From a virus, in IMG/VR virus record IMGVR_UViG_3300032214_000715, positions 175,164 to 239,163 of that record: 64,000 nucleotides of DNA; one strand, written 5' to 3'. Under the pieces are notes generated by a model that saw only the letters and a program-made list of their open reading frames with translations, was not told the DNA's origin and made no database searches. Every line of letters begins with the position of its first letter. The first letter of the stretch is position 1. A program made the position numbers and the translations under genes. Below are positions 39,526-64,000 of the stretch, in pieces.

Positions 39526-39900
39526 ACCAATGATTTTTTTCAAAAACTGAGCGATTCTCACCCGTTCATAACCGTTTGTAGCTATGCCGGACAAGAATAC
39601 GTGGGTGTAATTCAAAATCGTGATGATTTTATAACTACATTCTATGATTACGGTTCTATAGTAGATCAGAAATTAAAACAGCTATATTTGTCGTTGGGAG
39701 ATCAATGGTGGTGGGAGAGCAACAGATTAATTCCCATCAACATCTTTCTACGCGATGATTGGGCTATTTTTAAGCCATATCTTAGAACGTTTAACAATAA
39801 AGGTCTGAATATTCTTCACGGGCCTGCCACGTGTATGAGCGATCTTGCTAAAAAACGAGTTAAGCGTCGTAGCATTACTCTTGTGAAGAAAATGCTATAG
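39523..39900 (+). CDS. Conserved phage protein, unknown function (125 aa), plus strand
   Basis: A lone plus-strand gene between minus-strand units. Motifs: HPFITVCSYAGQEYVGVIQN, FITTFYDYGSIVDQKLKQLY, GDQWWWESNRLIPINIFLRD, then a basic C-terminus KKRVKRRSITLVKKML. The WWWESNR...IPINIFL block is one I recall from a conserved unnamed family in marine T4-like phages. Its 3' end overlaps the convergent DnaE-like gene by 26 nt. No Shine-Dalgarno is evident. Confidence 0.72.
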   Translation: MTNDFFQKLSDSHPFITVCSYAGQEYVGVIQNRDDFITTFYDYGSIVDQKLKQLYLSLGDQWWWESNRLIPINIFLRDDWAIFKPYLRTFNNKGLNILHGPATCMSDLAKKRVKRRSITLVKKML

Positions 39901-40471
39901 CATTTTCTGTCAAAAGATTCATATTTACAACTATCAAATTACTGTATGCAACGGCGTGGGCTTTTTTGAACATATAACCGTCATCCTTATTTTTGTCCCA
40001 TACTGTTTTTGCCACCTCCGCCCAAGATTTACCAATTAGATTCCGCTTTCCAGGTCTTATAACAGCCAGAAACATTGCCATTCTAGTAATACTATTGATT
40101 GATTCTGGCATTTTCAGCATACTATCGTAGTGATTTCCAATGTGAATCAATTTACTAAAGTAATCGCGATTCTGTAATAGTGACCAATCTGGTTCTTTCA
40201 TTAACTCAACCAAATGCTGTTCATCTTTTACATATTTGTAAATCCATACGTTCAATAAATCTAATTTAATATACCCACGTTGCTCAGCCATCTCATAATC
40301 TAGGGCGGCCGTTTTATGAATCGGATCATAGGGTATGTCGGTCGGATAAACTCCAGTGTTGTGCTTTTTTACTACATTATCTTTGCGTATAGAAGCCGAA
40401 GTAACATCTACGATTTTTAATATCGCATCCCGATCAGCAAAATCTATATCAATATCACTATTTAATTTCAT
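39875..40471 (-). CDS. DnaE-like polymerase fragment B: catalytic Asp motifs and finger segment (198 aa)
   Basis: Begins MKLNSDIDIDFADRDAILKI, matching the DnaE palm motif PDFDVDF...RD with both catalytic aspartates (D8, D10 here). RGYIKLDLLNVWI (D71) matches LVKFDFLGLRTL, which holds the third catalytic Asp. Later MAMFLAVIRPGKRNLIG parallels ALYRPGP, and FKKAHAVAYSNLIVVN (168-183) parallels the finger motif FNKSHAAAYA. DnaE reads directly from the end of the fragment at 25327-25842 into this one. The ATG overlaps the upstream zinc-finger gene by 4 nt. It could be the second half of a split C-family polymerase or a repurposed pair; activity is unproven. Confidence 0.78.
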   Translation of the reverse strand: MKLNSDIDIDFADRDAILKIVDVTSASIRKDNVVKKHNTGVYPTDIPYDPIHKTAALDYEMAEQRGYIKLDLLNVWIYKYVKDEQHLVELMKEPDWSLLQNRDYFSKLIHIGNHYDSMLKMPESINSITRMAMFLAVIRPGKRNLIGKSWAEVAKTVWDKNKDDGYMFKKAHAVAYSNLIVVNMNLLTENAIAFSSQE

Positions 40472-41178
40472 TTGAACGCCATATCAATTACGGTTTTAAT
40501 CTCATTCATTAACACCAAATCTCTTTTGAATTTTATGTTCCAACGCTCAGTATCAATATATTCCCATATCACGGCACGTTGATCCATATTCAACTCAGAC
40601 AAAAATGTGTTACCACTGTCACTCAGATAAAGCACCCAGGGGCTAATATGACCAGTACTAATCAAATGACACAACTTATTTTTGTTATAGTAGTTTAACA
40701 CATCTTGAAGACGAATATTTTCTGCGTCGGCTATCTCTAGCATAGTTTTTATGCTACGTTTCACGGCATCGTAAGCGTCTTCTGTTCTAAGATACTGTGT
40801 TAAATACTTAGTATATACTGAGTCACTACTCCAATTATCAATTGACACGTTATTACTTAGCAAGTGATTTAAGTACTCAGCTACATTTACAACTTTAACA
40901 TTCACGCAATATGTCCCGAATCTTAGAAAGGCCGAGTAGTAAGCACTTTCAGCAAACGCTTTATAGTCTTTTTTCTTTTTCCCAGGTTGTATTCTGGAAT
41001 AAAACGTGAGCCAGGAATCATAAGCAATGCGATTTTGAGGCCTGTCTCTTTCTTGCCAGCGAAGTTTCTGCTCACATAAATGCTTAATCAATGTAGACTC
41101 ACGAACAAAACTTCTATTACAATGTTGACAAGTGTTTGATTCCTGTACGTCAATTGCCTGAGAGATTTTCATATTCAT
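40468..41178 (-). CDS. C2H2 zinc-finger phage protein (236 aa)
   Basis: CQHCNRSFVRESTLIKHLCE (around residues 17-36) is a C2H2/C2HC finger followed by an Arg/Lys-rich stretch, suggesting nucleic-acid contact. The rest is helical (AYDSWLTFYSRIQPGKKKKD, SAYYSAFLRFGTYCVNVKVV, then LCHLISTGHISPWVLYLSDS). The stop overlaps the start of DnaE-like fragment B, and the start overlaps the gp62-like gene by 29 nt, so the three are translated together. This suggests a replication or repair role, but no precise function is known to me. Confidence 0.7.
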   Translation of the reverse strand: MNMKISQAIDVQESNTCQHCNRSFVRESTLIKHLCEQKLRWQERDRPQNRIAYDSWLTFYSRIQPGKKKKDYKAFAESAYYSAFLRFGTYCVNVKVVNVAEYLNHLLSNNVSIDNWSSDSVYTKYLTQYLRTEDAYDAVKRSIKTMLEIADAENIRLQDVLNYYNKNKLCHLISTGHISPWVLYLSDSGNTFLSELNMDQRAVIWEYIDTERWNIKFKRDLVLMNEIKTVIDMAFK

Positions 41179-43879: not shown

Positions 43880-43909
43880 AGTATACACAATTCACGTGTG
43901 AATTGTCAA
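43880..43909 (-). promoter_or_regulatory. uvsW promoter with embedded operator-like inverted repeat
   Basis: On the minus strand TTGACA (43904-43909), an 18-bp spacer, TATACT (43880-43885). Between and overlapping the boxes lie ACAATTCAC (43887-43895) and GTGAATTGT (43898-43906), a perfect 9-bp inverted repeat with a 2-bp centre, well placed for repressor binding. Confidence 0.65.
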
Positions 43910-43925
43910 ACACATAGTAGCCAAT

Positions 43926-44144
43926 TTATTTGTGTTTTGCTTTTTGTACTACGATCCAATCGTTACGAGAAGTTATTTCTGTGTCGTTATCCAGCACTAT
44001 AGTAGTGCCTTCAACCGCGGTTACTGTTCTTTGTTCGCCGGTTTCTTTGTGTTTGATAACATCACCACGCATAATGCCGCGACCATATGGGTACTTGTAT
44101 TCACTTCCGCCATAACTTTCGGTCAGCAATTCGACTATCTTCAT
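43926..44144 (-). CDS. Small protein with capsid-targeting-like N-terminus (72 aa)
   Basis: MKIVELLTESYGGSEYKYPY resembles the MKxxxELIxEA leader with an LxE cleavage site of T4 head proteins. The rest (GDVIKHKETGEQRTVTAVEG, then IVLDNDTEITSRNDWIVVQK) looks like a small SH3/KOW-type barrel. A perfect TATAAATA (44150-44157) ends 5 nt before the ATG, without a Shine-Dalgarno, so the message is probably leaderless. No terminator is visible between it and uvsW. Confidence 0.7.
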   Translation of the reverse strand: MKIVELLTESYGGSEYKYPYGRGIMRGDVIKHKETGEQRTVTAVEGTTIVLDNDTEITSRNDWIVVQKAKHK

Positions 44145-44149
44145 AGTAT

Positions 44150-44157
44150 TATTTATA
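44150..44157 (-). promoter_or_regulatory. Late promoter TATAAATA, adjacent to ATG
   Basis: Perfect TATAAATA, 5 nt, then ATG. By T4 spacing the start site coincides with the A of the start codon. Confidence 0.7.
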
Positions 44158-44180
44158 CAGAAAGCAAAAAGCCCGCGCTA

Positions 44181-44188
44181 GATAAATA
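44181..44188 (+). promoter_or_regulatory. Late-promoter element GATAAATA (plus strand)
   Basis: GATAAATA facing the HNH endonuclease gene, 63 nt before its ATG. Confidence 0.5.
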
Positions 44189-44251
44189 AAAGTGTAGTTC
44201 GCGAGCCTCGGAAACTCCAACTACTCTAACGCTTATAAGGAGCAATCAGCA

Positions 44252-44902
44252 ATGTTATTTAGTAAAAATAAACGAGATATTTCATATATAAAAATTTGGG
44301 TTGAACATCATGGTCCAATTCCATTAGATAAAAATGGAAGAAGAATGGAAATTCATCACATAGACGGTGATAAAACCAACAATAACATAAACAATCTTCA
44401 ACTACTGACAATTGAAGAACATTTTGATATTCATTACAAACAACAGGACTATGGATCTTGCTATCTAATTGCTATTAGAATGAAAAAATCACCAGAAGAA
44501 ATTTCTGATCTTGCTCGTCAAGCACAATTAAAAAGAGTGACAGACGGAACTCATCATTTTTTAGGCCCTGCTATGAATGCTAAAAGAGTGACAGCCGGAA
44601 CTCATCACTGGCTTGATGGAACAAAGTCCAGAGAGACTCAAAACAATCTTGTGAAAAGCGGAGTACACAGATTTGTCAATTCTGATTGGCAGAAAAATAA
44701 TCAACTCAGTCTAGTTGAGTCAGGAAAGCATAACTTTCTCGGCGGACATTTACAAAAATCATTGGTAAAATCAGGAAAGCATCATTTCGTGACATCCAAT
44801 CCAGGAAAGATTCAGTGGGTGTGCGAGAAATGCGGGAAAGAGGGAAAGGGAAAAACCAATTACGCTCGTTGGCATGGAGAAAATTGCGTAGTAAAAAAAT
44901 AG
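44252..44902 (+). CDS. HNH homing-type endonuclease with five SG/TGxHxF repeats (216 aa)
   Basis: AAGGAG Shine-Dalgarno 9 nt before the ATG. The HNH core is at residues 28-65: PIPLDKNGRRMEIHHIDGDK, then NNNINNLQLLTIEEH. C-terminal to it are five copies of a short unit (RVTDGTHHFLG, RVTAGTHHWLD, LVKSGVHRFVN, LVESGKHNFLG, LVKSGKHHFVT), similar to NUMOD-type DNA-recognition repeats. A final Cys pair (VCEKCGKEGK) and a His/Cys near the end could form a zinc finger. Probably a free-standing mobile endonuclease. It is oriented against its neighbours, supporting independent insertion. Confidence 0.85.
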   Translation: MLFSKNKRDISYIKIWVEHHGPIPLDKNGRRMEIHHIDGDKTNNNINNLQLLTIEEHFDIHYKQQDYGSCYLIAIRMKKSPEEISDLARQAQLKRVTDGTHHFLGPAMNAKRVTAGTHHWLDGTKSRETQNNLVKSGVHRFVNSDWQKNNQLSLVESGKHNFLGGHLQKSLVKSGKHHFVTSNPGKIQWVCEKCGKEGKGKTNYARWHGENCVVKK

Positions 44903-44920
44903 GGAGCAATTGCTCCCTAT
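44899..44920 (-). terminator. Rho-independent terminator of early AAA gene
   Basis: 22-nt perfect palindrome centred on CAATTG with flanking GGGAG/CTCCC arms. On the minus strand it is followed by seven U, 15 nt past the stop at 44936. The plus-strand HNH gene ends inside it. Confidence 0.85.
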
Positions 44921-44935
44921 AACGTGTGATGAATT

Positions 44936-45982
44936 TCAGTTCTTAACGCAGCATGTCTCCAGCGCAAGCATCTTCCAGTCAGTGGGATCAATTCTATACA
45001 GATCAGCAATCTTGAGAGCCATACGCAAACTCAACTCGCGAAGAATTTCTTTATTAGCCCACATGAACTCCAGAATTTCTTCGGATTGATTGTCCAGAAA
45101 TTCGTAATCAGCAAACAGACCGCCAACCACATCTTGACTGGCATCGGTGTGTACCTGACGAATTCTCAACATTTTGTCACGCGAGGTATTGATCGTGAGA
45201 TCCAGATAGTGACACCGAGATTGCAGAGCGGACAAGTGAGCAGCAATCTTCTTAGAGCGACGGTCGCTAAGATCCAGATTCGTCACAAAGATGCACGCCC
45301 CGTTGAACTCAAAATCGGTGGGAATGCCTTCCTTACGAAGAAAAGACGAATCACTATTCCACCAAATACGACGGCGCTTACCCGAATCAAGTGCGGCCTT
45401 CAGAATGTTCAGCGCATCTGGGTCATCAAAAACGTCTACGTCATCAAAGACCAAAACATTCTTACTGTCGCTATACTTGTACAGCAGTGCGTACAAACCG
45501 ATGGCAGTAATAGCGCCCTTGACAATCTCAAAGCGAACACGCTTGCCTGCCAGCTTGTCAAACAGACTTGCCTTTTCCAGTTGAGTCTCAATACCAAACG
45601 ACTTGCCAACGCCAGGAGGGCCAGTAACGATCATAGCACGACAGTCGCCGTTGATCGTAGCCTTGGTCATGGTGTCAAGAATACGAAACCGGCGACGGAT
45701 GCGATCCATGGCCTGCTCGTCAGTTTCATTGGATTCGGTCATAACTTCTGGCGAGAATGCTACAATTTGAGTGGGACGCGAGTTACCGTTGACGAATTCA
45801 ACATCAGCAGAATCGGTGATTTCAATATAAACCTGCTTGGAATCTCCAGGCAGTTGACCGTCATTCTTAACTTGAACACGACCAGGAGTAGAATCCAGAG
45901 GACGAGCCAGCGTGAACATCATGTTCTCAACAGCAAAGTTCATCTTGCGATACACGCCGCGCTTGACAAGAATTTGAGCCAT
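44936..45982 (-). CDS. Early AAA-family ATPase (348 aa)
   Basis: Single AAA module: Walker A TGPPGVGKSFGIETQLE (around residue 120), Walker B NVLVFDDVDVFDDPDALNIL, sensor-1 CIFVTNLDLSD and SALQSRCHYLDL with the arginine-finger region. Residues 1-95 form a separate N-terminal region (KRGVYRKMNFAVENMMFTLA). Similar ATPases occur in many phages without known targets. Two tandem early promoters (46017-46045, 46124-46152) precede it and a terminator follows, so it is a strongly expressed early unit. No protease or nuclease domain is attached. Confidence 0.85.
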   Translation of the reverse strand: MAQILVKRGVYRKMNFAVENMMFTLARPLDSTPGRVQVKNDGQLPGDSKQVYIEITDSADVEFVNGNSRPTQIVAFSPEVMTESNETDEQAMDRIRRRFRILDTMTKATINGDCRAMIVTGPPGVGKSFGIETQLEKASLFDKLAGKRVRFEIVKGAITAIGLYALLYKYSDSKNVLVFDDVDVFDDPDALNILKAALDSGKRRRIWWNSDSSFLRKEGIPTDFEFNGACIFVTNLDLSDRRSKKIAAHLSALQSRCHYLDLTINTSRDKMLRIRQVHTDASQDVVGGLFADYEFLDNQSEEILEFMWANKEILRELSLRMALKIADLYRIDPTDWKMLALETCCVKN

Positions 45983-46016
45983 TTCGTTGATTCCTTATCT
46001 AACTGTCTAGAGAATG

Positions 46017-46045
46017 ATTATAGTTGATTTTTGATTTATTGTCAA
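46017..46045 (-). promoter_or_regulatory. Early sigma70 promoter (AAA gene, proximal)
   Basis: TTGACA (46040-46045), 17-bp spacer, perfect TATAAT (46017-46022) on the minus strand, with ATAAATC directly after the -35 box as in the other early cassettes. Confidence 0.85.
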
Positions 46046-46123
46046 AAAATTTCGGAAGAAATTTATTGAAAAAATCAGCGAGTCAGTGTTGTTCGGAACT
46101 GTCTCTATCAACTCAACAACAAT

Positions 46124-46152
46124 AGTATATCACTGCGTTGATTTATTGTCAA
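46124..46152 (-). promoter_or_regulatory. Early sigma70 promoter (AAA gene, distal)
   Basis: TTGACA (46147-46152), 17-bp spacer, TATACT (46124-46129) on the minus strand. Its -35 box lies just before the stop of gene 46156. The 80 nt between the two promoters contain no open frame I can support. Confidence 0.75.
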
Positions 46153-46155
46153 ATT

Positions 46156-46908
46156 TCAGACAAAAATCTTGACGCGGTTAAATTGAGTCTTACCGTCGGT
46201 ATGATGAGCCTTGACAGTACCCTGAGCGGCAATCTTGCTTCCAACTTCAGGGTTAGACTTGTTGGAGAAGAAAACAACCTGATCATTGTCAGTAATCATA
46301 GTGACGAAATAGCAAGCCCATTGCTGACTATACACTGTACGAACGACTTCGCCCTTGAACGAAACCTTATCACCAACTTGTCCGACATGTCCACCTCGGG
46401 CATCGGCAATACGATCCTCTACCGATTGGCGAACTGTAGCACGTTCGTAACCTTGGGGCAGATACGCAACCGTACCCAGATCACGTTCGCTCACAGTTTC
46501 ACTGTTGGCAAGAGCAAGAGCCTTGGCATCAAATTCATTCAACACCTTGCCACCAAGAATCTTGAACATCAGACCCTTGTAATGTGTGCGGATCTTCTCG
46601 CCCATTTCACGGTCAAAGTCCGTAAGGGTAGATTGATCGGCAAGCATACGAACCATCAGTTCACGATTACTTTGCTTGGGAACAGCAACGCCATCAGCAT
46701 CAAGAGTGTAGGCACCAGCCTTGATATACTCATTTCCGACCGCACGATAGGCAGCGTAAGCAGCAGCAAACACCGTGCTGGTATCGTACATCATGGGTTG
46801 AGAACGCACGTAACGTTGGCTGCGTGTCGGCTTATAGCCTTCATCTGCTTGACACAGGGCCTTGACTTGAGAATTGGTCATACCAGAAACATCAACAAAA
46901 CCAGCCAT
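46156..46908 (-). CDS. Early phage protein with OB-fold-like C-terminus (250 aa)
   Basis: The N-terminal half is helical (MTNSQVKALCQADEGYKPTR, STVFAAAYAAYRAVGNEYIK, MVRMLADQSTLTDFDREMGE). Residues about 180-250 (GDKVSFKGEVVRTVYSQQWA, FVTMITDNDQVVFFSNKSNP, GSKIAAQGTVKAHHTDGKTQ, FNRVKIFV) have the strand pattern of an OB fold. That pattern often marks nucleic-acid binding in phage early proteins. Own early promoter at 46940-46968 and a GGAG ribosome site. Function not known. Confidence 0.78.
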   Translation of the reverse strand: MAGFVDVSGMTNSQVKALCQADEGYKPTRSQRYVRSQPMMYDTSTVFAAAYAAYRAVGNEYIKAGAYTLDADGVAVPKQSNRELMVRMLADQSTLTDFDREMGEKIRTHYKGLMFKILGGKVLNEFDAKALALANSETVSERDLGTVAYLPQGYERATVRQSVEDRIADARGGHVGQVGDKVSFKGEVVRTVYSQQWACYFVTMITDNDQVVFFSNKSNPEVGSKIAAQGTVKAHHTDGKTQFNRVKIFV

Positions 46909-46939
46909 TTCGTACTCCGTTGTCTAACTCAGTGAATAC

Positions 46940-46968
46940 AGTATATCAAAATCCGTATTATTTGTCAA
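46940..46968 (-). promoter_or_regulatory. Early sigma70 promoter of gene 46156-46908
   Basis: TTGACA (46963-46968), 17 bp, TATACT (46940-46945) on the minus strand, followed by the shared leader GTATTCACTGAGTTAGA and a GGAG site. Confidence 0.85.
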
Positions 46969-47246
46969 ATATTGCCGCAGGCTACATCAACCCGCAGATC
47001 GTGAATGCTGCCAAAGTATTCATTGACCAGCGTCTTCTTGCTCTCAGTGACCTTGTAGCGACCATAACGGTTCTTCTTGGCATTGATCACTCGTCCCTTG
47101 AACAAGAGCGTAGTGCTGGCATCATTACGAACCATTTCGACTTGTCGCATCGTTTCCAACCGCAGAGCACCCTGCTCTGCTCGGGCTAGGGCAAGGTCCT
47201 TTTCCAAAGAATCAATACGCTGTTGGATCTGTTCGAACTTGCTCAT
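46965..47246 (-). CDS. Small early protein with coiled-coil N-terminus (93 aa)
   Basis: Residues 1-40 are a heptad-like helix (MSKFEQIQQRIDSLEKDLAL, then ARAEQGALRLETMRQVEMVR). Residues 45-93 (TTLLFKGRVINAKKNRYGRY, then KVTESKKTLVNEYFGSIHDL) look beta-rich. Its 3' end overlaps the -35 box of the next promoter. Own early promoter at 47280-47308. Function unknown. Confidence 0.72.
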   Translation of the reverse strand: MSKFEQIQQRIDSLEKDLALARAEQGALRLETMRQVEMVRNDASTTLLFKGRVINAKKNRYGRYKVTESKKTLVNEYFGSIHDLRVDVACGNI

Positions 47247-47279
47247 TTCGTTTACTCCGTTATCTAACTCAACAAATAC

Positions 47280-47308
47280 AGTATATCACCAAACCGATTT
47301 ACTGTCAA
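47280..47308 (-). promoter_or_regulatory. Early sigma70 promoter of gene 46965-47246
   Basis: TTGACA (47303-47308), 17 bp, TATACT (47280-47285) on the minus strand, then a leader with GAGTTAGA and GGAG as in neighbouring cassettes. Confidence 0.85.
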
Positions 47309-47757
47309 ATTTTGAAACAAAGCCTAGATTTGATTTCTATGAAAAACTGATGGTACTTTGCCATACGGGCAATGTCCTTTTCACTGACCCCCTTCAGTCG
47401 GCGAATGTCGGTGTTGTGTCGAAGGTCTGCCATCTTGACACGCATAGCATCCTCACTAGCAAAGACACCTTCCTTGTATTCTTCGTAGGTCTGACCAGGG
47501 ACTTTTGTCAGTGCGCGGATACCACTGATTACTCTCTCACTGATGCCCGCGTCACGAAGGTCCTTGTATGTGACACTAGTGTCCTCGATAACATCGTGAC
47601 CTAGTGCGATACACATCAGTTCCTCATCATCGGTCTTGAGATAATGCATGACCTTAAGAGGGTGAAGAATGTAGGGATTGCCACCTTTGTCAAATTGATC
47701 GGCATGAGCATTAGTCGCAATGACTAGCATCTTGCCTAACATTTCACCTTTTCTCAT
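47305..47757 (-). CDS. HD-domain alarmone hydrolase, SpoT/MESH1-like (150 aa)
   Basis: Carries the metal-dependent (p)ppGpp 3'-pyrophosphohydrolase motifs: NAHADQFDKGGNPYILHPLK (H32), ALGHDVIEDT (H54, D55, E58, D59) and VKMADLRHNTD (D111, N115). In SpoT and MESH1 these positions bind Mn2+ and the substrate. The synthetase, TGS and ACT domains are absent, so it is a stand-alone hydrolase, slightly shorter than MESH1 (about 180 aa). Own early promoter at 47787-47815. It probably lowers host alarmone levels early in infection; the exact nucleotide substrate is inferred. Confidence 0.85.
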   Translation of the reverse strand: MRKGEMLGKMLVIATNAHADQFDKGGNPYILHPLKVMHYLKTDDEELMCIALGHDVIEDTSVTYKDLRDAGISERVISGIRALTKVPGQTYEEYKEGVFASEDAMRVKMADLRHNTDIRRLKGVSEKDIARMAKYHQFFIEIKSRLCFKI

Positions 47758-47786
47758 TTTTCGGTCCTTTCTTTTACTGTAGTTAC

Positions 47787-47815
47787 AGTATACTACCGAA
47801 CCGATTATTTGTCAA
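47787..47815 (-). promoter_or_regulatory. Early sigma70 promoter of alarmone hydrolase gene
   Basis: TTGACA (47810-47815), 17 bp, TATACT (47787-47792) on the minus strand. The leader differs from the other cassettes after TATACTGTA, but AAAGGACC provides a ribosome site. Confidence 0.85.
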
Positions 47816-48087
47816 GCAGTCTCTAGCATGTTGGCAGGAACACGCCAACGAGTCATTCCTGTATCAACAACTACATTCTTGGTCATGATCTTGGATACCT
47901 TACCAACTTCAGTCTGTCCCGTACGGCTATTGACGAACTTCACCATAGAACCAATCGTTACGGAACGACGAGTCTGCTTTGCCAAATTACCACGTGCGAA
48001 CTTCACCGCAGAAATAATAGAATTCAACTGTTCATTGGTCAAGGACCCGAACATGATGCTAGAATTGATTTCTTGAATAGTAGCCAT
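47812..48087 (-). CDS. Small early protein with SH3/KOW-like barrel (91 aa)
   Basis: N-terminal helices (MATIQEINSSIMFGSLTNEQ, LNSIISAVKFARGNLAKQTR), then a barrel-like segment VTIGSMVKFVNSRTGQTEVG, KVSKIMTKNVVVDTG and WRVPANMLETA. This combination is common among small phage proteins of unknown function and resembles KOW-type nucleic-acid binding. Own early promoter at 48122-48150 with the shared leader and AGGAG. Confidence 0.75.
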   Translation of the reverse strand: MATIQEINSSIMFGSLTNEQLNSIISAVKFARGNLAKQTRRSVTIGSMVKFVNSRTGQTEVGKVSKIMTKNVVVDTGMTRWRVPANMLETA

Positions 48088-48121
48088 TTCGTTTACTCCT
48101 GTTTTCTAACTCAGTGAATAC

Positions 48122-48150
48122 AGTATATCAAAAATCGGATTTATTGTCAA
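48122..48150 (-). promoter_or_regulatory. Early sigma70 promoter of gene 47812-48087
   Basis: TTGACA (48145-48150), 17 bp, TATACT (48122-48127) on the minus strand. The leader from TATACTGTATTCA through GAGTTAGA to AGGAG is nearly the same as upstream of 46156 and 48147. Confidence 0.85.
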
Positions 48151-48500
48151 ACCCCGAGAACTTCGCGTTCCTCTTCGGACAACTTATTCAGTGCTGCCCT
48201 GCGAAGCATAGCCCTACGCTCGGCTTCGGCAGCCTGTGCTTCCTCACGGTCCAGAACGAATTCCAGATCGTAGAGTACTTCATCGGTTACTCCGTCGTAT
48301 TCCAACGCAAGGATGAAACCCTCATTATTCAGAGTTGCATCGAACATTCCGCGTCGAACGAAAACATCACCGCCCAACTTGTTCAAGCGTTCCAGAGCAG
48401 CCATCAATCGTGCAGGGTACGTCGCCCGGGCTTCTGCGATCTGCGCGTTCCGCAGTGCGTCACGTTCTGCCATCAGTTCTGCTTTAGTCTTACGTGCCAT
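48147..48500 (-). CDS. Small early Ala/Glu/Arg-rich protein (117 aa)
   Basis: Start set at ATG 48500 because GGAG lies 7 nt upstream; an upstream in-frame start would lie inside the promoter. Helical N-terminus (MARKTKAELMAERDALRNAQ), a short beta region (GGDVFVRRGMFDATLNNEGF), then a helical, highly charged end (EAQAAEAERRAMLRRAALNK). Own early promoter at 48530-48558. No family recognised. Codons look more G+C-rich than in the late genes. Confidence 0.72.
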   Translation of the reverse strand: MARKTKAELMAERDALRNAQIAEARATYPARLMAALERLNKLGGDVFVRRGMFDATLNNEGFILALEYDGVTDEVLYDLEFVLDREEAQAAEAERRAMLRRAALNKLSEEEREVLGV

Positions 48501-48529
48501 TTTGTGCTCCTGTTTTCTAACTTGAATAC

Positions 48530-48558
48530 AGTATATCAAAAAACGGATTTATTGTCAA
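48530..48558 (-). promoter_or_regulatory. Early sigma70 promoter of gene 48147-48500
   Basis: TTGACA (48553-48558), 17 bp, TATACT (48530-48535) on the minus strand, starting just past the stop of the upstream small gene. Confidence 0.85.
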
Positions 48559-48559
48559 A

Positions 48560-48730
48560 TTACTGAGACTCAACGCTACATTCGCATTCATAATCAGTCG
48601 ACTTACGATTAGGATTTTTCTCCCACTCGGCCCAGGCAGCTTCCTCAATTTCATCTTCGCTTGCTTCATTCAAAACATCAAAGACAACACGATAGGTTAC
48701 AGTCTCGGTAAAAATAGCAACGCGGCGCAT
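48560..48730 (-). CDS. Small early acidic protein (56 aa)
   Basis: ATG at 48730, 11 nt after the upstream stop; weak GGAC ribosome site. Product: MRRVAIFTETVTYRVVFDVL, then NEASEDEIEEAAWAEWEKNP and a tail with two Cys (YECECSVESQ). The start looks like two beta strands and a helix follows, a size and composition common among phage early host-takeover proteins. Third gene of the unit driven by the promoter at 49148. Confidence 0.68.
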   Translation of the reverse strand: MRRVAIFTETVTYRVVFDVLNEASEDEIEEAAWAEWEKNPNRKSTDYECECSVESQ

Positions 48731-48741
48731 TTGTTTGTCCT

Positions 48742-49002
48742 TTACAGAGTATTCAGTGTCGCTTGTAGTTCAGTAAAAGTCTTATAGACTTGAGAGCCAT
48801 CACGACTAGTACGCAAGATCATAAAGTTACGATTGTAGATTTCTACAGTGGCATCTAATGTGCGAGCGCGACCAAAAGTGATGGCAAGATACTTGCGTCC
48901 ATTCTTACTGGTCTGCTCACTGGTAAGAATGCCGTATGGCGCATTGAAATTTCTAGACTTGACAAACGTTTCAATCGCCGAAAGTATTGCTTGACTGTTC
49001 AT
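48742..49002 (-). CDS. Small early protein, unknown function (86 aa)
   Basis: Sequence: MNSQAILSAIETFVKSRNFN, GILTSEQTSKNGRKYLAITF, ARTLDATVEIYNRNFMILRT, then QVYKTFTELQATLNTL. Helix then beta sheet, no recognised family. Starts 3 nt after the stop of the 37-codon gene upstream. Shares the early promoter at 49148-49176. Confidence 0.7.
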   Translation of the reverse strand: MNSQAILSAIETFVKSRNFNAPYGILTSEQTSKNGRKYLAITFGRARTLDATVEIYNRNFMILRTSRDGSQVYKTFTELQATLNTL

Positions 49003-49005
49003 TCT

Positions 49006-49119
49006 TCAACCAAATTCATTGTAAATTTGAATATCTTGCTCGTATTGTTCAACAAAAGCGAGAAAAGCAGCATCTTCATCGTGCTGTTGATCCGTCAACT
49101 CTGGCTGTGTAGTGTTCAT
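49006..49119 (-). CDS. Very small early peptide (37 aa)
   Basis: ATG at 49119 with GGAG 6 nt upstream, directly after an early promoter (49148-49176). Product: MNTTQPELTDQQHDEDAAFL, then AFVEQYEQDIQIYNEFG, strongly acidic. A good promoter, ribosome site and 3-nt spacing to the next gene support translation. Function unknown. Confidence 0.6.
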   Translation of the reverse strand: MNTTQPELTDQQHDEDAAFLAFVEQYEQDIQIYNEFG

Positions 49120-49147
49120 CAACATCTCCAACTGATTCAATACTGGT

Positions 49148-49176
49148 AGTATAGCAGGACCATGATTTATTGTCAA
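49148..49176 (-). promoter_or_regulatory. Early sigma70 promoter of the 49119-48560 unit
   Basis: TTGACA (49171-49176), 17 bp, TATACT (49148-49153) on the minus strand. No gene is seen between it and the UvsY stop at 49238. Confidence 0.82.
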
Positions 49177-52543: not shown

Positions 52544-54547
52544 TTAAGCGCCGCGTCTCATCCATTTTTTTAATTTTGACATCTCGCGGTTGTAGTGAAC
52601 GTCGGATTTTGATGTGCGTGATTGATTGACTCCAGAAAATGGACTTAAGCTACTGCCACCAAAATAATCCGGATTATCGGATTCTGTTATGCCGCCAAGC
52701 ACACTATCCAAAATGTGTTTGATTTTCTTTGGAGCTTTGCCCAGCGGGTATAAGTCGTGTATTATGTCTTTTCGTTCTTCATCATCGGCTGATGTATACA
52801 TATTTCGGATTTTGCTAGCACTATCAATAACTTGTCCGTTTATTTCAAAGTCAATTTTTGGAACGATGTAGATGTAACCGTGCTTGCTCATTGGTTGATC
52901 AGCCGCATCTGAATATGGTTGAAAGTACGCTGGGCTTCCATCTTTCTTTGGTGCGAAACTAAATCTATCACTGTCTTTTTCACTGACAGCAAACACTAGC
53001 ACTGTGTTTTCTGGATCATAATTTGTGGTAATTTCATTTGCTTTGTAGGGACTTTTAACTTGTACGAATCTGTCTTTTGGAACACCGCTTTGATTTGCTA
53101 GAAATTTTTTATCATCAAACCCAAATGGACGTTCTGTTTTGGAATCGGTTGCTGCTACAAATACCTCACCGTCTGGAAATTTGTGAGCCAGATGATCAAA
53201 CACACTTGCGTGTCCAAGATGAAATGGATGAAATCCGCCTGGGTAAATAACTAATTCTTGCTTACCGTTAATATTTTCTTTAAGAGTCGGTTGCGCTGAT
53301 TGTGGTCGTTGTTTGGCTAATCTTGCTTGTGCGTTTTGTCTGCTAAATCCAAGACGATCTACTATTTTTATTCCTCCACTTACGAATCCTTCTTGACTGG
53401 CAGTCATTTCACCACCAGGCGTAGTAGATCGTAAATAGCCCTGTAATGGACTTTGTTGTGCCGCTTTTTCTAGCGATGGAATCAAACTCATTTTGTATCT
53501 ATAAACTTTTATCCAATTATCCCATATTTTGCTAATAATGCTGCGATTTTGTTCGTAGTATTCAATTAAGGCTTCATATTTTCTACGTGATATTGGAAGT
53601 TTTGGTTTTGCCAATTCCGAATCCAATCTCAATTTGTAAGCAGCATCAAATCCAGAATCTAGTGTTTTTAGATCAAGTTTCCCAACATTGATTAATCCAT
53701 TTACGTAAGTAGTAAATCTGTTGGCAAAATTAGTAGCAGATTCGGGAGCACCTGTAATAAACTTTTTAATCGCTGAGTCATCCGATATAGTTGATTCTGC
53801 GACAGATTTTATTTGTTCATTTACGTTTATAGTTGGAGTCACTGGCATACGAACAGGCAACAGTGCTACGTTTCCACGACGACGTAATTTTCCTAATCCT
53901 GATAGCCAAGTGATATTACTTTCTGTGGTTGCCGCATTTGGTGGCAAGTATCTGTGTATAGCTATTCCGGCAATTTTATCACGTAAATATTCTCCAAGAT
54001 CGCTATCAACCGGAACACGATACATTAGTCCTTCTGGGTTAGCTTGAAACTGATAAACCTGATTTGAATTTATATTTTGTACGGTCAGTGGCTTGCTAGG
54101 ATAAAATATTAAGTCTCCCATATACCAACCAGTATTACCACTATAAGAGGCCTCCAATGATTTCCAAAGTGATGCGACGGTTCTGGACAAATCTGTTCTT
54201 GCCTTTTCTCCACGAGCCGCTTCTCGTTGTGCGAATTCTTCTGGGCTATAAACGGCACGATTTTCGCGATTGGAGCTATTAAACATATGCTTGTCTAGTA
54301 TAGCAAATCTTCCGTCTGGCCCACTACCGAATACTAGTGCTGGCCATCCATCTATTTTTATAGTTACCGCTTGTGGACGCTCTATAGTCGCATTTAGTCC
54401 AGCTATTGCTTGAGGTAGCGGAGTATATACTTGTCCTTTTCCAGCTTCTAGTCCGCCCCAGATCACCATGTCTTCTGGGTGATCCATATGTCCAGCGGCC
54501 TCTAATAGAAGCGTTTTATTTTCTAATATAAGTTCTCTGGACAACAT
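52544..54547 (-). CDS. Fusion: ligase-like KxDG domain plus HxGH nucleotidylyltransferase (667 aa)
   Basis: N-terminus MLSRELILENKTLLLEAAGH resembles a capsid-targeting leader. Residues 20-230: HPEDMVIWGG, then VTIKIDGWPALVFGSGPDGR contains the KxDG motif I of ATP-dependent ligases/nucleotidyltransferases. GYMGDLIFYP and NPEGLMYRVP follow at plausible later motif positions. I recall a KxDG family of this type in marine T4-like phages. A helical middle (residues 260-430) leads to residues 440-620: VIYPGGFHPFHLGHASVFDH with the HxGH active site of cytidylyl/NMN-adenylyl transferases, then SASKIRNMY, matching the C-terminal ISSTxIR motif. Substrates unknown. Starts 1 nt from the upstream stop. 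Confidence 0.78.
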   Translation of the reverse strand: MLSRELILENKTLLLEAAGHMDHPEDMVIWGGLEAGKGQVYTPLPQAIAGLNATIERPQAVTIKIDGWPALVFGSGPDGRFAILDKHMFNSSNRENRAVYSPEEFAQREAARGEKARTDLSRTVASLWKSLEASYSGNTGWYMGDLIFYPSKPLTVQNINSNQVYQFQANPEGLMYRVPVDSDLGEYLRDKIAGIAIHRYLPPNAATTESNITWLSGLGKLRRRGNVALLPVRMPVTPTINVNEQIKSVAESTISDDSAIKKFITGAPESATNFANRFTTYVNGLINVGKLDLKTLDSGFDAAYKLRLDSELAKPKLPISRRKYEALIEYYEQNRSIISKIWDNWIKVYRYKMSLIPSLEKAAQQSPLQGYLRSTTPGGEMTASQEGFVSGGIKIVDRLGFSRQNAQARLAKQRPQSAQPTLKENINGKQELVIYPGGFHPFHLGHASVFDHLAHKFPDGEVFVAATDSKTERPFGFDDKKFLANQSGVPKDRFVQVKSPYKANEITTNYDPENTVLVFAVSEKDSDRFSFAPKKDGSPAYFQPYSDAADQPMSKHGYIYIVPKIDFEINGQVIDSASKIRNMYTSADDEERKDIIHDLYPLGKAPKKIKHILDSVLGGITESDNPDYFGGSSLSPFSGVNQSRTSKSDVHYNREMSKLKKWMRRGA

Positions 54548-62530: not shown

Positions 62531-64000
62531 TTATAAGAATGGGTTAAGCGTCGATGTAAACGCGTTGCCGACGTTAGTGATAGTAACATTATTAATACTT
62601 TTGTCAACAATTGATTCGCTTTGACATGTCAACAATGCTGTGTTTGTTATAGCAGTTAATGGTGATGTGGGCACACTAACACCACTAGGATAAACTCCGG
62701 ATCCTCTTACTATTCTAAAATTACTTATAAAAGATTTACTGAGATATTGACTACCATATCCTCCCCCAATAGCAAAGTTTCCACCATAACTTATATAGTC
62801 GCCCCCCACTGATACATTATCCTCACCATTTATTGTTAATTTAGTTGATCCGTTAATTCTACTGATTACTAAGTGATACCAGGTATTTGTCGTCACTATA
62901 GCCATTGTCCCTCCGCCACCTTCGCCAACACCTCCAGCGACCATAAACAATGAATTGTTTTGTACTCTAAGCAGTAATCCATTGGGGTTGGCGGGGTATT
63001 TCAATCCTCCAGTTGTAGTGCTGATCTGCCATACCACTCTATTTTCTGTAGCATCAGTAAAAAGTACCCAACACTCTACAGTGAAATCCCCCGTACCTAG
63101 CGCAGGTATTACGCCATTCAAATAACTACTTCCGTCAAAGTTGACACTGTTATAACCAGAACCATCAGAACCACCACCGGTACCTCCGCCTCCGCCTCCG
63201 CCGCCTCCTCCAGATGCTAGAGAAATTTCAACTCCACACCATCCAGTAGTCCAGTTTGTGGTTGTTACTCCATTGGCTGTGGTGCCTGAATAATTTTGTA
63301 AGTACCCAACAAAATTTTTAGTTATCGTAGCAGTAGCTCCAGGGGCAACTAACCCGGCGTGAACGGCAGCTACGGCAAAATCCGAATCCTGTGTGTAAGG
63401 ATTTGAGCCCCACACTGTGGTGCCAGTTAATGACCCAGTTACTGTTTGAGTTGCTGATGTTGCTTCGTTACAAATCGTAACGCTGTCGGCGTTTATTTCT
63501 ATAGCTGTCGATGGCATATTAATATTTATAGAACTTACTTGATCGACAGACCAATAATCCCAACTATTAGATATATATCCATCACTTTCTATAGTCGCTG
63601 TCGTCGGCATACTTCTATTAGTTGATCCAATAAAATTATTATCCCAAAAATTCCAACTATTAGGTATATATCCATTGCTTTCTAATACGGCAGTAGTCGG
63701 CATATTCAAGTTAGTAGAACTAACCATACCGCTTGTCCATGTACTCCAATCAACATTTAACTCAATTCTATATACATAAGCACTGCCAGCATCAGTAAAT
63801 CCGCTATGATCGTCAAGATATGCGCCAACTACAATAAGATCACCACTTATACTTATTGAAACTCCAAAACTGTCAATTCCAGCAGCATCACTAGCTGTTA
63901 ATTTTTGTTCTTGTACCCAACTAGTTCCGTTATATCTATATACATACGCACTACCAGCATCAGTAAATTCACTATGATCGTCTTGTCTTGATCCAACTAC
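62531..64000 (-). CDS. Adhesin-like fibre with FG-GAP repeats and LamG domain, 5' end cut by window edge
   Basis: Open for 490 codons to the right edge without a start that I trust. An in-frame ATG at 63727 exists, but the frame upstream of it clearly encodes FG-GAP/integrin-type repeats (LTASDAAGIDSFGVSISISG, DLIVVGAYLDDHSGFTDAGS, AYVYR twice). Next come three short repeats of the type NMPTTAxxExxGYIxNSW. A Cys-containing domain and a poly-Gly hinge (nine Gly) precede a C-terminal LamG/ConA-like jelly roll: FDGSSYLNGVIPALGTGDFT, VECWVLF, WYHLVISRINGSTKLTINGE, FISNFRIVRGSGVYPSG. Probable receptor-binding protein. Confidence 0.85.
   Translation of the reverse strand, partial: VVGSRQDDHSEFTDAGSAYVYRYNGTSWVQEQKLTASDAAGIDSFGVSISISGDLIVVGAYLDDHSGFTDAGSAYVYRIELNVDWSTWTSGMVSSTNLNMPTTAVLESNGYIPNSWNFWDNNFIGSTNRSMPTTATIESDGYISNSWDYWSVDQVSSININMPSTAIEINADSVTICNEATSATQTVTGSLTGTTVWGSNPYTQDSDFAVAAVHAGLVAPGATATITKNFVGYLQNYSGTTANGVTTTNWTTGWCGVEISLASGGGGGGGGGGTGGGSDGSGYNSVNFDGSSYLNGVIPALGTGDFTVECWVLFTDATENRVVWQISTTTGGLKYPANPNGLLLRVQNNSLFMVAGGVGEGGGGTMAIVTTNTWYHLVISRINGSTKLTINGEDNVSVGGDYISYGGNFAIGGGYGSQYLSKSFISNFRIVRGSGVYPSGVSVPTSPLTAITNTALLTCQSESIVDKSINNVTITNVGNAFTSTLNPFL

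Follow-up and report, generated by a model that had tools for sequence, protein, structure and literature searches.

Subgroups of the small alarmone hydrolases (SAHs) were defined in 2011 (PMC3153485). Phage-encoded SAHs have been tested against toxSAS toxins and serve as laboratory antidotes (PMC7644958, PMC11559606, PMC9712102). The toxins act in one of two ways: synthesis of (p)ppApp drains ATP, and pyrophosphate attached to the 3′-terminal A of tRNA brings translation to a halt (PMC11782079, PMC9712102). CapRel acts against phages via tRNA 3′ pyrophosphorylation, and PhRel, another tRNA-targeting toxSAS, is protective too (PMC11559606).

On the phage side, Jimmy 2020, which PMC7644958 cites, is reported to have found that the SAH of the Salmonella phage PVP-SE1 relieves the toxicity of FaRel in vivo, and the PaSpo SAH of the Salmonella phage SSU5 removes the 3′ pyrophosphate with which FaRel2 modifies tRNA (PMC11559606). 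A jumbo-phage "HD-alarmone PDease" was proposed as a counter-defence factor in 2021 (Iyer et al., PMC7824862), and a Pakpunavirus SAH, that of Pseudomonas phage Adele, was discussed in 2025 (PMC12846349). With these SAHs published, the view taken in the first-pass annotation of the DNA studied here, with MazG as the main known route by which phages control alarmones, is outdated. The protein we describe is a new addition to a family that hundreds of phages are known to carry.

Its gene lies in the window, the 64,000-nucleotide stretch that we analysed, which forms the final 64 kb of a 239,163-base IMG/VR record. The record encodes UvsX, UvsY, a single-strand binding protein, a DnaB-like helicase, a primase and a T4-type terminase; the source virus is, by its sequence, a T4-like jumbo phage. 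A near-identity DNA search of named phage records, with 24 kb of the window as the query, returned no match. The ORF listing of the window places the hydrolase gene on the minus strand, from an ATG at 47757 down to 47305, with a product of 150 aa; the first-pass annotation had given the same ORF and omitted the strand. The neighbouring genes are small ORFs without known function and genes for an OB-fold protein and an AAA protein. Elsewhere in the record, outside the window, there is a match to a MazG-like pyrophosphohydrolase (contig C1:717–869; PF03819, 30 bits, above the cut-off); the same phage has nucleotide pyrophosphohydrolases of both the MazG and the HD type.

In an alignment covering 95% of the query, the SAH of PVP-SE1 (gp220, YP_004894027, PHROG 990) has 54.9% identity to the window protein. 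The two have the same HD site and the same DKGGNPYILHPLKVMHYLKTDD and DLRHNxDxRRLKG motifs, and both are encoded by stand-alone genes of large phages. PVP-SE1 belongs to another phage group (Vequintavirinae), and its SAH was tested against toxSAS toxins according to the citation of Jimmy 2020 in PMC7644958, whereas the window protein is known from sequence. PaSpo is a stand-alone phage SAH as well, but its name is that of a different SAH subgroup, paSpo (PMC3153485), and we liken it to the window protein by description only. The jumbo-phage HD-alarmone PDease, also likened by description, shares the counter-defence idea and is itself a prediction only. MESH1, PaSAH and XccSAH have the fold and the catalytic residues of the window protein (TM 0.77–0.81 for MESH1 and PaSAH), but they are longer and only 23–26% identical to it. 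Two residues past the catalytic Asn, MESH1 has Arg (NLR), whereas the window protein has Asp.

The first-pass annotation had credited the protein with a full HD catalytic set, and all seven residues are present at the numbers it gave: the metal ligands H32, H54, D55 and D111, the ED pair E58 and D59, and the Asn N115. The HD-motif set is thus complete, and across 84 aligned relatives none of these residues is less than 97% conserved. By profile, the protein matches PHROG 990, "metal-dependent phosphohydrolase" (E=1.8e-58), and the NCBIfam model TIGR00691 (spoT_relA) matches with E=8.4e-16, in the HD part of the profile only. We built an AF2 model from an alignment (A2) that includes Aph1-like bacterial proteins retrieved with a protein of the pneumococcal phage IPP64. 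The model (mean pLDDT 95, pTM 0.90) consists of a single domain, and, as had been claimed, no synthetase, TGS, ACT or other regulatory domain was found in the 150 aa.

With this model as the query, Foldseek gave 27 matches at E ≤ 0.001. The first was PDB entry 7smg (TM 0.88, rmsd 1.2–1.6 Å, E=2.5e-10), which is 34–35% identical to the window protein, followed by MESH1 (E=1.5e-6), the P. aeruginosa SAH (1.6e-5) and Rel (2.4e-5). Entry 7smg is the (p)ppApp hydrolase of Bacteroides caccae, and we take it to be the Aph1 of Ahmad 2023 (PNAS), a study that reportedly defined a two-residue (p)ppApp signature. The comparison with MESH1 that had been suggested earlier recovers the same fold, but 7smg is closer. 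All solved structures matched at E<0.001, by sequence or by fold, are alarmone hydrolases, Rel/SpoT or unnamed HD proteins such as Lmo0812, which also aligns to MESH1. HD proteins beyond the alarmone set first appear at E=0.29–0.41 in Foldseek. Because the significant structure matches of known function are alarmone hydrolases and Rel/SpoT, with other HD proteins only from about E=0.3, the window protein (47305–47757, minus strand) is, as judged from profiles and the predicted fold, an SAH, that is, a member of the RSH superfamily with the HD domain only.

Relatives are encoded by 135 IMG/VR stretches, of which 80 were kept at 75–100% identity. A relative is also present in 315 of 50,697 phage records and in 319 plasmid records, and 427 bacterial-genome stretches were matched when the pneumococcal homologue was the query. 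Pairwise dN/dS was 0.03–0.06 in four pairs with unsaturated dS, and the gene is under strong purifying selection. The many relatives, the conserved residues, the low dN/dS and the PHROG 990 match rule out a chance ORF.

A sigma-70 type promoter (TTGACA-17 nt-TATACT; 47787–47815, minus strand) lies about 30 nt upstream of the ATG of the hydrolase gene. Between the two is a leader (47758–47786, minus strand) with a ribosome-binding site, AAAGAAAGGACCGAAAA, ahead of the ATG. The consensus promoter noted in the first-pass annotation is therefore there, and it has an equivalent in relatives: of 79 relatives, 42 have a strict sigma-70 site ahead of the gene, where shuffled sequences give 0.03 and random positions 3.4. 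When each hexamer may differ from the pattern in one letter, the site is found in 53 of the 79, and most such sites end about 24–31 nt before the ATG. The promoter is thus conserved upstream of the hydrolase relatives and is genuine. As it is of the host-type sigma-70 form, we infer early expression of the gene.

The gene neighbourhood, on the other hand, is little conserved, since any single neighbour is common to at most 7 of the 50 loci with flanks. With its own promoter conserved while the neighbourhood is not, the gene behaves as a portable accessory cassette carrying its own host-type promoter.

From 43.9 to 49.2 kb (43909–49176) the minus strand has nine near-consensus sigma-70 sites, and the hydrolase promoter is one of them. 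Most of the nine share the core TTGACAATAAATC...GATATACTGTA and have similar leaders, and many of them each drive one of a run of consecutive small genes. The set looks like an amplified early-gene promoter array. Within it, five consecutive genes (46940–48558, minus strand) each have their own near-identical TTGACA-17-TATACTGTA promoter (48558, 48150, 47815, 47308 and 46968). The promoter of this type that serves the 93-aa ORF at 46965–47246 (47280–47308, minus strand) overlaps the end of the hydrolase gene.

The question of which alarmone the protein acts on was approached through its nearest relatives and through the positions on the base side of the active site. In a single-sequence phmmer search the score was 87.6 bits for 7smg, compared with 49.3 for the best Rel. 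Since the Aph1-like bacterial proteins in A2 bias its profile, a phage-only profile (A3), which consists of the window protein and its IMG/VR relatives and contains no Aph1 member, was used for the profile search; it scored 106.7 bits to 7smg and 57.7 to the best Rel. In a maximum-likelihood tree, PVP-SE1, CR9, phiN3 and Vibrio phage 2.275.O fall within the window clade. With a support of 98 this clade joins 7smg, bacterial relatives and the protein of the pneumococcal prophage; SpoT, Rel and MESH1 are separated from them by further branches, with supports of 94–95. A grouping with metazoan Mesh1 was not found in this tree, and human MESH1 reached 24.5 bits in the profile search.

The base-side positions follow the same division. 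Rel R44, nine residues ahead of the first metal histidine, faces guanine in the RelSeq structure. Its position is occupied by D23 in the window protein and by Asp in 79 of 80 relatives. Likewise, the window protein and 79 of 80 relatives have N-x-D where SpoT, Rel and MESH1 carry N-x-R (NMR/NLR). The Rel/SpoT-type Arg is therefore absent at both positions, each of which is Asp in the window protein. Besides their common side of the tree, 7smg and the pneumococcal prophage Aph1 share with the window protein the N-x-D (NMD in 7smg, NSD in the IPP64 relative) and the Asp at the R44 position.

The IPP64 relative is 45% identical to the window protein, and its gene stands in the order MuF protein, 70-aa ORF, HD protein. 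Such an order has been described for Apk2-IapK-Aph1, where the Aph1 component is a (p)ppApp hydrolase (PMC12226406). By sequence, profile, fold and tree, the window protein is nearest to the (p)ppApp hydrolases (7smg/Aph1) and apart from Rel, SpoT and MESH1. From this relatedness, from D23 and N-x-D, and from the likeness of the IPP64 order to Apk2-IapK-Aph1, a preference for adenosine, that is, for (p)ppApp, is predicted. Of the first-pass reading as a (p)ppGpp hydrolase like MESH1, the stand-alone RelA/SpoT-type HD hydrolase is retained, but both (p)ppGpp and MESH1 are doubtful with 7smg/Aph1 as the nearest relatives and Asp in place of Arg.

We consider it probable, on sequence and by analogy with tested SAHs, that the window gene is an accessory SAH gene with its own sigma-70 promoter, and that its product serves counter-defence by undoing toxSAS-made 3′-pyrophosphorylation of adenosine. 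Host RNA polymerase would transcribe the gene from this promoter, probably early. The product would be a metal-dependent (probably Mn2+) SAH of the RelA/SpoT superfamily, within the (p)ppApp hydrolase (Aph1) clade. It would remove the 3′-pyrophosphate from adenosine in (p)ppApp and possibly at the 3′-terminal A of tRNA, with (p)ppGpp as the expected poorer substrate. Effectors of the FaRel, CapRel, PhRel or Apk type produce (p)ppApp or tRNA-PP in the course of abortive infection, and by undoing this damage the SAH could keep the ATP and translation of the infected cell running for the phage. An enzyme that undoes toxSAS damage is the simplest reading because PaSpo cleans tRNA and the PVP-SE1 SAH, 55% identical, is reported to relieve FaRel. 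Two counterpoints should be mentioned: with a MazG-like gene in the genome, the phage may simply manage nucleotides broadly, and several SAHs (MESH1, XccSAH, PaSAH) are promiscuous.

The second counterpoint leads to a reading that is possible, if unlikely, namely a 3′-pyrophosphohydrolase with no strong base preference, which would hydrolyse (p)ppApp, (p)ppGpp and tRNA-PP equally and so erase RSH products in general. The catalytic core that such an enzyme needs is intact, and MESH1, the Xanthomonas SAH and the Treponema SAH set the precedent (PMC7644958, PMC9765508, PMC10434055). The base-side positions, however, are of neither the MESH1 nor the Rel type, and MESH1 was the most distant solved relative among the matches listed in the phage-only profile search.

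It is rather doubtful that the protein is a (p)ppGpp hydrolase which removes the stringent-response signal as infection begins and thereby lets rRNA synthesis and transcription continue. Some SAHs do act on G as well as A alarmones (PMC7644958, PMC9765508). In addition, the protein belongs to the RelA/SpoT HD superfamily with every catalytic residue present, and its relatives are often annotated as guanosine-3′,5′-bis(diphosphate) 3′-pyrophosphohydrolase. Nevertheless, among the relatives whose activity is known, the closest hydrolyse (p)ppApp, the guanine-facing R44 of Rel is replaced by Asp, and NxR has become NxD. Of the two roles put forward in the first-pass annotation, the neutralisation of (p)ppApp-type defences is consequently the better supported half, and stringent-response clearing the less supported one.

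In prophages of Streptococcus and Aggregatibacter, members of the same subfamily are encoded next to MuF or head proteins, which would fit an antitoxin or immunity protein with a synthetase partner in the same phage, as in Apk2-IapK-Aph1 of temperate phages. Here this arrangement is improbable. The pneumococcal Aph1 adjoins a (p)ppApp-synthesising toxin as its immunity protein, whereas the window gene stands alone under its own promoter, and no (p)ppApp synthetase toxin gene was found adjacent to it at the locus. The IPP64 MuF protein has no match in the record. A local toxin–immunity pair is unlikely also because no RelA_SpoT synthetase was found in the 239-kb record, by a search of limited sensitivity to divergent toxins. 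Across 40 SAH-carrying phage records no RelA_SpoT synthetase (PF04607) scored above the cut-off, which is weak evidence because PF04607 is equally silent on the MuF-carrying IPP64 phage.

Finally, membership in another HD subfamily (dNTPase, YfbR-type nucleotidase or cyclic-dinucleotide phosphodiesterase), which the Pfam HD_4 match under the gathering score (23 vs 27.2 bits) might suggest, is very improbable, as the spoT_relA match is strong, structures at E<0.001 are alarmone-type or unnamed HD proteins, and neither by profile nor by fold was a dNTPase or nucleotidase subfamily the best match, the kind of result that the first-pass annotation had named as grounds against its own reading.

The counter-defence reading of the window SAH can be extended, tentatively and with less than even confidence, to the entire PHROG 990 phage clade. 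Its members would then be dedicated counter-defence enzymes for adenosine 3′-pyrophosphate, which erase (p)ppApp and the tRNA 3′-PP of CapRel, PhRel and FaRel type, are expressed as soon as infection starts, from a sigma-70 promoter that is conserved, and make their lytic carriers resistant to toxSAS. We know of no demonstration in an infection that this clade protects lytic phages from toxSAS. If the proposal is true, labels such as "(p)ppGpp hydrolase", "GTP pyrophosphokinase" and "SpoT-like" on these phage genes mislead, because the likely targets are toxSAS products, (p)ppApp and perhaps tRNA 3′ ends. A widespread, vaguely named phage gene would become a directly testable counter-defence factor, and the D23 and D117 positions would offer a concrete test of specificity. 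The window protein itself looks tuned to (p)ppApp and not to (p)ppGpp, and this speaks for a role in counter-defence more than for one in regulating the stringent response.

A separate observation concerns the Sinorhizobium phage phiN3 (NC_028945), which also carries the hydrolase. At 150020–150325 it has a sub-threshold match to the RelA_SpoT synthetase (E=4e-6), and the two may form a synthetase/hydrolase pair within a single phage.

Several other features of the window deserve mention. Among the minus-strand genes there is a lone plus-strand gene for an HNH endonuclease (44252–44902; PHROG 12324, intron-like DNA endonuclease), which is probably a free-standing homing endonuclease. On the minus strand, a short ORF with a full-length match to the 197-aa "DNA polymerase" PHROG 11778 adjoins a conserved ORF without known function (39875–40471 and 40468–41178), and it may be a split or reduced polymerase. 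The 667-aa protein encoded at 52544–54547 (minus strand) has an N-terminal DUF6267 followed by a weak cytidylyltransferase-like match. Matches to LCCL and laminin-G/ConA-like lectin domains, an unusual pairing for a phage, occur in the protein encoded at 62531–63727 (minus strand).
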